64,000 nt of DNA. Origin: Ferrovum sp. PN-J185 (GTDB taxonomy: Bacteria > Pseudomonadota > Gammaproteobacteria > Burkholderiales > Ferrovaceae). The DNA lies in the NCBI RefSeq assembly GCF_001581925.1, contig NZ_LQZA01000001.1:496001-560000 (forward strand), in the 5' to 3' direction. The first letter of the stretch is position 1. The number at the start of each line of letters is the position of its first letter. The position numbers and the translations under genes are program-made. Below are positions 16,614 through 20,220 of this stretch, piece after piece. The notes beneath the pieces are model-generated. The model was not told the DNA's origin and ran no database searches. It worked only from the letters and a program-made list of their open reading frames with translations.

Positions 16614-17323
16614 TGCTTGCCGTTCACTGTCACACACAACTTCCTGGTTTTAGTTTAGAAGTAGCATTACAGTTACCTTCACAACTGAGCGTTGTGTTAG
16701 GTCCTTCTGGCGCAGGTAAATCTCTTTTGTTACAAACCTTAGCAGGATGGATTAGGCCTGATAAAGGAGTTATTCGTTTCGGTGAGGAATGTTGGTTTGA
16801 TCAGACAAATAATATTAATTTGTCCGTCAGAGACAGGCAGGTGGGTTTTGTTTTTCAGCATGATGCATTGTTTCCGCACATGAGTGCTCTAGAGAATATA
16901 GTATACGGACATCGTGCACCAACAAGTAGGGATGCGCGAGAGAAAGCCACAACTTTTGCACAGCGCTATCAATTGACTGAGGTTCTCTCTCTCTTTCCTC
17001 GTCAACTGTCAGGTGGTCAACGACAACGTGTAGCACTAGCGCGCACTCTGATGAGTGAGCCGCGTTTACTGTTATTGGATGAGCCTTTATCCGCTTTGGA
17101 TTTTATGACTCGCCGGCACATACGTGATCAATTAATAGAGATACAACGCCAACTGTTACTACCTATGGTATTTGTGACTCATGATATTCATGAGGCGGTG
17201 TTCATGGCGGATTATTTGGTGTTGATGAACGAAGGCCAAGTGATTCAGGCAGGAGAAAAAGAACAGGTACTGACGCATCCTGCTAATAACTGGGTCAAAG
17301 AGTGGTTAGCGGAAGTACGTTAA
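16613..17323 (+). CDS. modC: Molybdate ABC transporter ATPase, short form without Mop domain
   Basis: I place the start at ATG 16613, inside the modB stop, giving 236 residues; an upstream start would run deep into modB. Walker A is GPSGAGKS (near 30), signature [15 protein letters not shown] (near 132) and Walker [13 protein letters not shown] (near 153). Typical ModC proteins are about 350 residues with a C-terminal Mop/TOBE molybdate-sensing domain; that domain is absent here, and the protein ends soon after the H-loop region. It converges on umuC with a four-base overlap. Confidence 0.85.
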
Positions 17324-18618
17324 TAAGCAATAGCCAATTCATCCCATTCTGTGGTGTAACGAGGTGAGCGTTTTTCAAGGCGCACAGACCAAGAGCGTGA
17401 TAAATGTTTAAGAGCACTGCTGCCAAAGGTAATGGTGTTGCCACCAAAGCGTTGGTTGAGTGTGTCAATGGAGTGCATCAATCGTTCACTGCTGTGTAGA
17501 TCAATGTCACTAAATAACTGTTGCTGTTGTTTGGTTTTATCGGATAAATCAAGTAATACGACGCCCACTTTATGATAAAGCAGTCCTGGTTTGAAAATAC
17601 GTTGCAATCCTCTGATCGCTGCTTGATTAAGAAGACGTGTGTCATCACTACTTATTGCTAGAGATTCAAGAGCATGATTGCTGTAATGAATTTCTTTTTG
17701 ACGAAAGGGGTTGGTACGAATAAATACGCCCACTGTATGACAAAGAGATCCTTCTTCACGCAATTGAAGCGCTGCTCGATGCATATGAAAAATCACAGCC
17801 TCTTCTACAGATGAGTAGGAAAGGGTAGGTTGACCAAAACTGCGGCTACAAATAATTTGTTTACGTGCTGAAGGATGCTCCTCCCAAGCCAGAGCCACTT
17901 CGCCCCTTAATTCAGTTATGGTTCTAGCCAGCATGACATTAAAGTGTGAACGAATAACAGATAGAGGGGTATGGTAACAATCCCAGAGTGTAAAGATATT
18001 TAACTTAGCTAAAGACTGTTCTAAGTTGGCGCCAATTCCCCACAGGGTAGAGCTTGGTAGTATTTTTAAAAAGCCATGTTGTTGTGTTAGTGATAAGTGA
18101 GGCCACACACATACTCCTTTAAATTCTAGGTTTTTTTTAGCCAGATGATTAGCCAATTTAGCCAGTGTTTTAGTGGGCCCTATACCCACTCCTACAGGTA
18201 ATCCCAATTGCTTTAGAAGTGTTTTTCTAAGTGTGTAACCAAACTCTTCTAAAGGCTGTTTGTATGAGCTTATATCTAAAAAACATTCATCAATAGAGTA
18301 AATTTCTTGGCTGGGTGCAAACTGTTTTAATAAGCGCATCATGCGCTCACTCATATCGGCATATAAAGCGAAATTAGAACTCAGTGCCACTAGGTTATGG
18401 CTGTTCACTAAATGGGCTACTTTGAAAAAAGGAGTGCCCATGGCAATACCTAAGGCTTTGGCTTCATTGCTGCGTGATACAACGCAGCCATCATTATTGG
18501 ATAACACGACGACAGGACGCCTTCTTAGAGAAGGATTAAATACCCGTTCACAGGAAACATAAAAATTATTGCCATCAATAAGAGCAATACCACTATTTAT
18601 GGTCGATGTAGTACCCAT
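17320..18618 (-). CDS. umuC: DNA polymerase V catalytic subunit
   Basis: A 432-residue Y-family polymerase, the usual UmuC length. The palm carries [14 protein letters not shown] (residues 12-25) and [10 protein letters not shown] (near 103), containing the catalytic carboxylates; a helix-hairpin-helix segment ([19 protein letters not shown], near 140) and little-finger domain follow. It copies past damaged bases when bound by UmuD'2. The start overlaps the end of umuD by 22 bases, so expression is coupled and under the LexA site upstream of umuD. Confidence 0.92.
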
Positions 18619-18953
18619 GTCACTACTCCCCAGATAAGAGAGTCCTCTGCGTCGGTTAACTGTATTGTGCGATACCGTGGGTCATCCGCTTCCAGATAGC
18701 CTTTGTTATGTCTAATGATTAAGCGACGCACCACAAATTCATCACGTAGGTAAGCTACCACTACCTGTCCTGAGTGAGGAGTAAGTGTACGGTCAACCAC
18801 TAATAGATCTTCTTTAACAATCCCAGAGGCCTGTAACGCATTGCTTTGAGCACGAAAAAAGAACGTACTCTCAGGGTGAGGCATGAGATAGCGTAAAAGA
18901 TTCAGTGTATGTTGCTCTTCTTGAGCAGGGAAAAAAGCCAAATGTTGCGTCAT
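18597..18953 (-). CDS. umuD: UmuD'-like protein, short and without catalytic dyad
   Basis: Only 118 residues. By alignment on HPxxTxF, its first residue corresponds to about position 22 of E. coli UmuD, so the N-terminal arm and the Cys-Gly cleavage site are missing: the gene encodes the UmuD' form directly. The SGDSM catalytic serine (S60) is replaced by A39 (QSNAL), and the lysine (K97) by R76 (VVRRL). No earlier start is possible, because the frame has a stop inside the LexA box. It should therefore activate UmuC without RecA-driven self-cleavage. The core fold motifs DLLVVDR and [14 protein letters not shown] are intact. Confidence 0.85.
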
Positions 18954-18957
18954 AGGA

Positions 18958-18982
18958 ATTATAATACTGTATATTTATACAG
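18958..18982 (-). promoter_or_regulatory. SOS promoter of umuDC: LexA box and -10 element
   Basis: CTGTATATTTATACAG at 18967-18982 is a full-consensus LexA box (CTGT-N8-ACAG). On the minus strand a TATAAT -10 element (18963-18958) follows, only four bases before the umuD ATG. Transcription would begin at or within a few bases of the ATG, and there is no Shine-Dalgarno sequence, so the mRNA may be leaderless. Confidence 0.85.
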
Positions 18983-19115: not shown

Positions 19116-19178
19116 GATGTTCGTCTATCACTTTGCTTCTATCTGAATGAATATAATTTGATCTGTTTTGGAGAGTAT

Positions 19179-19571
19179 ATGGGAGTATGGGCTGTAATTT
19201 CTGTGGGTGTGGGTGCAGCATTTGGTGCTTGGCTTCGTTGGTGGTTAAGTATGGTACTTAATCCGCTATTCCCTACCTTACCTCTAGGTACGTTAGCGGC
19301 TAATTTAATAGGCGGTTATTTGGTTGGGGTAGCAGTGGCTTTTTTTACTGAGCGCGCTGGTTTTCCTCCTGAAGCAAAGTTATTTATTATCACAGGGTTT
19401 ATGGGTGGGTTAACGACTTTTTCTACCTTTTCTGCAGAAGCCGTAGCCCTATTGATGCGTGCAGAATACCTGTGGGCGAGCTTACATGTTCTCATTCACC
19501 TAGCAGGGTCGCTAGTGATGACAGGATTAGGTATTGCGACGGTACGTTTTCTATCCATTGGGCGTGGTTGA
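19179..19571 (+). CDS. crcB: Fluoride ion channel CrcB (Fluc)
   Basis: A 130-residue, four-helix membrane protein that exports fluoride as a dual-topology dimer. GAAFGAWLRWWLS (near residue 12), PLGTLAANLIGGYLVG (near 35) and GFMGGLTTFSTFS (near 78) are the family motifs, the last containing the Phe-box and the central sodium-site region. ATG 19179 is chosen because GGAGAG precedes it; a TTG at 19158 lacks a site. A fluoride riboswitch precedes it. Fluoride export matters most in acid, where HF enters cells. Confidence 0.92.
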   Translation: MGVWAVISVGVGAAFGAWLRWWLSMVLNPLFPTLPLGTLAANLIGGYLVGVAVAFFTERAGFPPEAKLFIITGFMGGLTTFSTFSAEAVALLMRAEYLWASLHVLIHLAGSLVMTGLGIATVRFLSIGRG

Positions 19572-19667
19572 TTGGACGTGCGGCAAACCTCGCTCTTCAG
19601 AGTGGAGAAAGATTGGGCTGACCGGAGGAGTGTCAGTAATATTGGGGGAAGCCCAAGTTACTAAGGG

Positions 19668-20220
19668 TGATCAATGGCGGAGGCGTGCCATGGTTTCAGC
19701 GTTGACCTTGTTTGAACTTGATGAAATGATGGCCGCCTATGCGAGCTATGAAAAGCTTGCAGAAATTATTCGCCATCGCTTCAGCGAGCCCAAAGCAACG
19801 TTACGTGAGTTATTTTCAAGGATTGTTTTTAATATTCTGTGTGGTAACACAGATGATCATGCACGTAATCACTCAGCATTCTGGGACGGTTATCAGTTAT
19901 CCTTAACACCTGCATATGACATTTGCCCTCAATCACGATCGGGGCAACAGGCATCTCAAGTTATGCTCATTCATGGTGGAGATCGCAGTAGTCATTTAGC
20001 TACATGCATTATTGCTGCTCCTTCCTTTTTGCTCGCAAGACAAGAGGCGATTGCTATCATCAACCATCAGGTAAATGTGATAGAACATGAATGGCAAGCC
20101 ATTTGTGATGAGGCGAGATTGAGTGAAGTCGACCGGACGTTATTTTGGCAGCGGCAGTTTTTAAATCCATTTGCATTCCTCCATGCGCCAGAGGGCGTTC
20201 GTATTCCCGTGAAGGATTAA
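19668..20220 (+). pseudogene. HipA-like toxin kinase, C-terminal fragment
   Basis: The readable part (RRRAMVSALTLFELDEMMA onward) matches the C-lobe of HipA Ser/Thr kinases: catalytic loop GNTDDHARNH (about residues 60-69 from 19668) and the metal-binding segment TPAYDICPQ. A whole HipA is about 420-440 residues; here only about 185 remain, the N-lobe with the ATP-binding loop is missing, and no hipB antitoxin is adjacent. The frame stays open upstream into crcB, but that part is not HipA-like. It is most likely a decayed relic of a toxin-antitoxin system. Confidence 0.75.

Follow-up and report, generated by a model that had tools for sequence, protein, structure and literature searches.

A chromosomal, gene-encoded UmuD' without the Ser-Lys dyad in Ferrovum sp. 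PN-J185 and its close relatives

In Escherichia coli, three checks act on DNA polymerase V (Pol V): repression by LexA, cleavage of UmuD and activation by RecA-ATP. In textbook accounts the proteolytic switch of UmuD is the central post-translational control of the polymerase; UmuD' is removed by ClpXP through the UmuD/UmuD' heterodimer. A UmuD' that is encoded directly by a gene is already known, HumD of phage P1. Here we describe umuD', a gene for a 118-residue UmuD homologue in a 64,000-nucleotide stretch of Ferrovum sp. PN-J185 DNA (contig NZ_LQZA01000001.1, positions 496,001 to 560,000; hereafter the window), which represents a new, chromosomal form that lacks the catalytic Ser-Lys dyad. 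A literature search restricted to open-licence papers found no published natural dyad-less UmuD. The E. coli work that bears on this gene credits UmuD self-cleavage with delaying Pol V and finds that the release of UmuC from the membrane needs UmuD cleavage (PMC4552617), gives the active complex as UmuD'2C-RecA-ATP (PMC12926913), and both models the N-terminal arm of UmuD' within UmuC and reports that a stretch of UmuC past the clamp motif touches RecA (PMC11791011).

The umuD' gene lies on the minus strand at 18597..18953, with its ATG at 18953, and together with its LexA box it makes up the range 18597-18982 to which a sequence-only reading had drawn attention. That reading held that the protein begins at the equivalent of UmuD residue 22 and that the catalytic serine and lysine are replaced by Ala39 and Arg76, and both statements were borne out. 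In a phmmer alignment with E. coli UmuD', query residue 14 pairs with residue 35, an offset of 21 that makes Met1 the equivalent of residue 22, Ala39 (codon at 18837..18839, minus strand) that of Ser60 and Arg76 (codon at 18726..18728, minus strand) that of Lys97, where residues are counted on UmuD of strain MG1655; a MAFFT alignment with MG1655 UmuD placed the same two residues at Ser60 and Lys97. The start is thus three residues ahead of the Gly25 equivalent, the position at which HumD begins, and the protein has neither the Cys/Ala-Gly cleavage site nor the N-terminal arm. The family assignment is supported by Pfam PF00717 (Peptidase_S24; 59.4 bits, cut-off 23.3), while the top-ranking NCBIfam model, UmuD NF007621, scored 102.5 bits, below its cut-off of 110, and the HumD model NF051876 scored 51.7 bits, below its cut-off of 120. 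An AlphaFold model based on a 35-row alignment adopts the UmuD' fold with a mean predicted local distance difference test score (pLDDT) of 85.6, residues 1-5 being below 50, and its best match among solved structures is 1umu_B (Z 16.4, root-mean-square deviation 2.5, 106 residues aligned). No N-terminal DNA-binding domain of the UmuDAb type was found in the 118 residues, as Pfam gave Peptidase_S24 alone and the model a single S24-type domain.

The structural alignment also bears on whether an intact dyad might stand elsewhere in the protein. Residues 11-117 of the model pair with 1umu 32-137, at both ends in the register of the sequence alignment. None of the lysines is shared by all five orthologues described below, one of which (in genome G006) has a single lysine, which leaves no conserved candidate for another Ser-Lys pair, and an alternative dyad was rejected.

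The LexA (SOS) box, CTGTATAAATATACAG, is a perfect palindrome on the minus strand at 18967..18982, 13 nucleotides (nt) ahead of the ATG. It contains an in-frame TAA (18977-18975) and a second in-frame TAA is found just upstream, which confirms the earlier claim that a stop codon within the box bars a longer form of the protein. All four genomes of the genus have the same box, starting at -29, and in G006 it reads CTGTATATTTATACAG at -28; the boxes of E. coli umuD and of HumD are at -37. Between box and gene is a -10-like hexamer, TATTAT (18961..18966, minus strand), read from the sequence and ending 7 nt ahead of the ATG. Its position and the absence of any Shine-Dalgarno-like run are weak evidence that the umuD' transcript is possibly leaderless, which we only mention because, of 13 further starts checked in the window, 8 have no such run either.

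The gene is apparently the only source of UmuD in its genome (G000, 1.89 Mb and 99.99% complete). A family search for a second or full-length umuD found none, the S24 proteins being LexA and the window UmuD' only; LexA retains its Ala-Gly, Ser and Lys, and RecA and Lon are both encoded. The partner gene umuC (17320..18618, minus strand) overlaps umuD' by 22 nt and encodes a 432-residue protein with Pfam domains IMS, IMS_C and DUF4113, for which the top-ranking NCBIfam model was NF002955 (407.4 bits, below the cut-off of 431). This UmuC retains the catalytic Asp and SIDE motif, a clamp-like QxxLF and a C-terminal SPRYTT, and the stretch past the clamp motif that touches RecA in E. coli is recognisable together with the C-terminus. 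The stretch of the UmuD' arm that is modelled within UmuC is likewise still encoded in umuD'. No other Y-family polymerase was found in G000, UmuC being the single match, and G001-G003 and G006 have one match each.

The short start, the Ala/Arg pair and the LexA box are common to all four genomes of the genus that were surveyed and to G006, which represents another genus of the same family (f1, in which 30 of 32 genomes have a protein match, LexA matches included). For the two closest genomes, the ratio of nonsynonymous to synonymous substitution (dN/dS, Nei-Gojobori) is 0.028/0.442, or ~0.06, for umuD and 0.046/0.657 for umuC, whereas dS has reached or almost reached saturation in the remaining pairs. 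In a tree of UmuC combined with UmuD, the latter stripped of its dyad columns, the genus groups with G006 as a clade (support 95/95), the sister of which (99/98) comprises four long UmuDs of family f46, the nearest long-arm relatives, all four with Ser and Lys kept; the long UmuDs of three other f1 members were placed elsewhere in the tree. A viral origin was also considered and set aside: five pattern matches in a scan of viral_contigs included no relative by tblastn, and the phage records match at <60% identity in 58 of 58 cases.

By this evolutionary signature the gene is a real, conserved and functional one that encodes a chromosomal, dyad-less and apparently sole UmuD'. Given the lack of a longer form, of both dyad residues, of a second UmuD in the family search and of any conserved lysine, self-cleavage, as judged from sequence and model, should be impossible. 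We estimate a probability of roughly 80% that the product is UmuD' made directly for Pol V under LexA control, with RecA still needed. DNA damage would lead to RecA filaments and to self-cleavage of LexA, freeing the box at 18967-18982 so that umuD' and umuC are expressed; UmuD' would then dimerise and bind UmuC without a cleavage delay, its fold being kept under selection as a subunit of Pol V, and activation of the polymerase would still proceed via RecA. The middle check of the E. coli system, UmuD cleavage, is thus absent from the gene, the LexA box is present, and a RecA-ATP check is to be expected from the kept UmuC. We infer the binding to UmuC, the activity, the timing, the missing inhibitory full-length stage and the order of events. 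The earlier proposal that the cleavage step is skipped is supported by the lack of arm and dyad, while its corollary that Pol V would depend only on LexA repression is too strong, as RecA should still be needed both for the cutting of LexA and for assembly of the active UmuD'2C-RecA-ATP complex. In this species and its close relatives, one of the safety steps that usually precede error-prone DNA synthesis thus appears to be permanently open. Without a full-length UmuD no UmuD/UmuD' heterodimer can form, and shut-off would be left to LexA and general proteolysis.

Several observations weigh against a ready-made, fully active UmuD'. Of the N-terminal GFPSPA of UmuD', only part is retained, as LAFFPA in the window and TFFSV in G006. 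Grouping G006 with f46 instead of with the genus was not rejected by the approximately unbiased test (p-AU 0.113), so two truncations are possible. An E. coli UmuD that lacks 18 residues gave only low mutagenesis while uncleaved (PMC5342242), and a start near that of UmuD' need not, as a consequence, be fully active. The same experiment favours a rival in which the short, dead UmuD' is a brake that binds UmuC or RecA to give a poorly active polymerase and a low-mutation SOS response, as does the failure to find another Y-family polymerase in G000. However, umuC is under purifying selection with its catalytic residues kept, which would be unexpected if the complex merely brakes, and we regard this explanation as unlikely.

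Less probable still, and in our opinion very improbable, is that another cellular protease or another residue pair processes the window UmuD' in a way that matters; Lon is present, but there is no arm to remove, and the lysine content of the orthologues speaks against a second pair. That umuD' is decaying, or that its 5' end was misassembled or misannotated, might be supposed from the loss of dyad and arm in a small genome but is scarcely credible, as the same start, residues and box recur in five genomes from two genera, all five with an open frame, in-frame stops lie upstream of the window gene, and the low dN/dS of the closest pair disfavours a pseudogene.

Returning to a UmuD' made directly for Pol V, we propose that the dyad disappeared for want of a task, there being neither an arm to remove nor a full-length UmuD on which to act in trans; its loss fits a residue pair whose sole job is arm cleavage. 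Trans cutting of a partner is possible for the E. coli UmuD that lacks 18 residues (PMC5342242), and by analogy HumD, which meets host UmuD, may keep its dyad for this purpose. Such a loss-of-use account is not general, which also counts against our interpretation: HumD and a short UmuD of another genome (L350) are Ser/Lys, and in the Chitinophagaceae the dyad was lost and the arm kept.

The wider occurrence of changed dyads was surveyed in a set of UmuD proteins that is not random, having been gathered with these proteins as queries and with short open frames in part picked on purpose. After removal of 23 loci whose gene was already represented and of 13 LexA-like or other rows (among them L026, a Ser/Lys protein whose stretch has no umuC), 271 UmuD rows were left, 196 of them Ser/Lys and 75 not. 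These correspond to 261 distinct cores (187 Ser/Lys, 74 not; ten rows repeat an identical core), including eight without the usual C-terminal pattern that were kept in. The 75 rows are the five short orthologues, L088, L287 and 68 Chitinophagaceae proteins.

The order of the window has a match in 127 of 399 genomes at an E-value of 1e-10. Among 58 further loci of the order, 54 are Ser/Lys, one had a gap (L281), two were without a match (L284 and L285) and one is His/Arg; a later alignment reads L281 and L284 as Ser/Lys. A short His/Arg UmuD with a full-length umuC beside it is found in G455 (L247, the same as L287), together with a near-LexA box that has one mismatch in its outer letters, and a family search of this genome at E 0.001 showed no other UmuD, only LexA-like matches. 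A sample of 70 Pseudomonadota loci, several of them from genomes already in the survey of the order, gave 65 Ser/Lys, three changed and two in which the dyad was not readable (L324 and L354). Changed residues in Pseudomonadota UmuDs are Ser/Arg in L351 (G1120), which is short and HumD-like, Asp/Lys in L362 (G1092) and Ala/Lys in L389 (G1027). The genome of L350 (G1171), which is also HumD-like, belongs to the same family (f58) as that of L351, and it is possible that these two are an intermediate pair. In an Aeromonadaceae metagenome-assembled genome (G063), a short Gly/Gln UmuD' adjoins umuC (L088) and a second, long UmuD is carried elsewhere (L318); the other Aeromonadaceae loci read are Ser/Lys in 29 of 29 cases. 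Counting proteins that are short by the first ATG and have complete upstream sequence, the dyad is changed in four lineages (the window with G006, G455, L088 and L351) and intact in two (HumD and L350), where "short" in L088, L089, L350 and L351 refers to the first ATG and GTG or TTG starts further up are possible. Three loci (L311, L352 and L353) are cut off by contig ends, and a short Ser/Lys form from Arthrobacter Hiyo8 (L046) was discarded as a doubtful record with only a partial umuC by tblastn.

A different state is found in the Chitinophagaceae, where a search with the L061 UmuD found matches in 181 of 294 genomes at E 0.001. We read 70 loci (L129-L158 and L189-L228), 30 of them the best matches and 40 spread down the listed ranking. 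Arg replaces Lys97 in 68, the remaining two being more distant and Ser/Lys, and position 60 in the Arg forms is Ala in 59, Ser in eight and Cys in one, which suggests that the lysine was lost first, as Arg is present in all 68 while Ser remains in eight. The 68 lie on one side of a branch (Shimodaira-Hasegawa-like approximate likelihood ratio test, SH-aLRT, 99.9) in a UmuD tree made by a quick method from few columns; as it was built without the dyad columns, they form one group apart from the dyad residues themselves. Their arm is conserved (one of its columns, for example, is Gln in 66 of 68), and a UmuC with a SIDE/SVDE motif adjoins in 23 of the 24 loci that extend far enough to show it. 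CTAA-N5-TTAG, the SOS motif of Bacteroidetes (PMC8565304), is found no more than 120 nt upstream of the gene in 65 of 68, compared with 0.34 expected from shuffles. Thr stands at the cleavage site in 63 of the 68; this is no proof of lost cleavage, because L355-L358, four Ser/Lys proteins whose arms are fairly short, likewise have Thr-Gly there.

In one quick UmuC tree, with SH-aLRT support only, the Chitinophagaceae clade is far from the group of the window, so its dyad loss would be independent and a shared origin of the two Ala/Arg forms is unsupported. As the arm and the SOS box stay, these proteins do not fit a simple loss-of-use account, and the uncut arm must be useful or harmless. On this comparison of sequences we lean slightly towards the UmuD switch having been abandoned several times, as a dead and apparently sole UmuD' in the window and G455 and as a full-length arm that is never cut in the Chitinophagaceae. 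If so, Pol V in the latter would run with the arm in place. Natural lineages without the cleavage step would be ready-made tests of the value of the delay for survival and mutation rate, and of any separate role of the full-length stage. They also urge caution in annotation, as a match to the S24 family or the name "autoproteolytic subunit" is no proof of UmuD cleavage.

Two further features were noted. Ten UmuDs from the same order as the window (L009, L010, L011, L013, L014, L015, L021, L025, L239 and L241) have a basic N-terminal extension, GGxRPGAGRK...EPT, for which the one example tested had no Pfam match. TTGAT-N6-14-ATCAA is present in five of their ten distinct upstream regions (0.02 expected by shuffle) and a LexA box in none of the ten, which suggests that they may regulate themselves in the manner of UmuDAb. 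Within the window, an open reading frame at 19534-20220 (plus strand) opens within the end of another at 19158-19571 and matches only the C-terminal part of HipA_C (PF07804 positions 76-213 of 213, 95.9 bits); it is apparently what remains of a HipA-like kinase.

The window UmuD' can be compared with several known systems. With E. coli UmuD/UmuD' it shares the fold (Z 16.4 to 1umu), the umuDC operon and the LexA box, and it differs in that the 24-residue arm, the cleavage site and the Ser-Lys dyad of E. coli UmuD are all absent. The Chitinophagaceae clade (L043, L061 and orthologues) resembles it in the change of Ser to Ala (59/68) and of Lys to Arg and in the upstream SOS-type box (65/68), but keeps a conserved arm where the window protein has none. 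UmuDAb of Acinetobacter is likewise a UmuD with a changed role. Another gene-encoded UmuD' is HumD, the record of which is annotated as functionally complementing UmuD' and the gene of which also begins at the UmuD' position (MGFPSPAADY) with a LexA site upstream. HumD keeps both Ser and Lys whereas the window UmuD' has neither, and HumD is carried by a phage with no umuC in its 2.7 kb stretch, whereas the window umuD' is chromosomal, paired with umuC and the only UmuD found in its genome.
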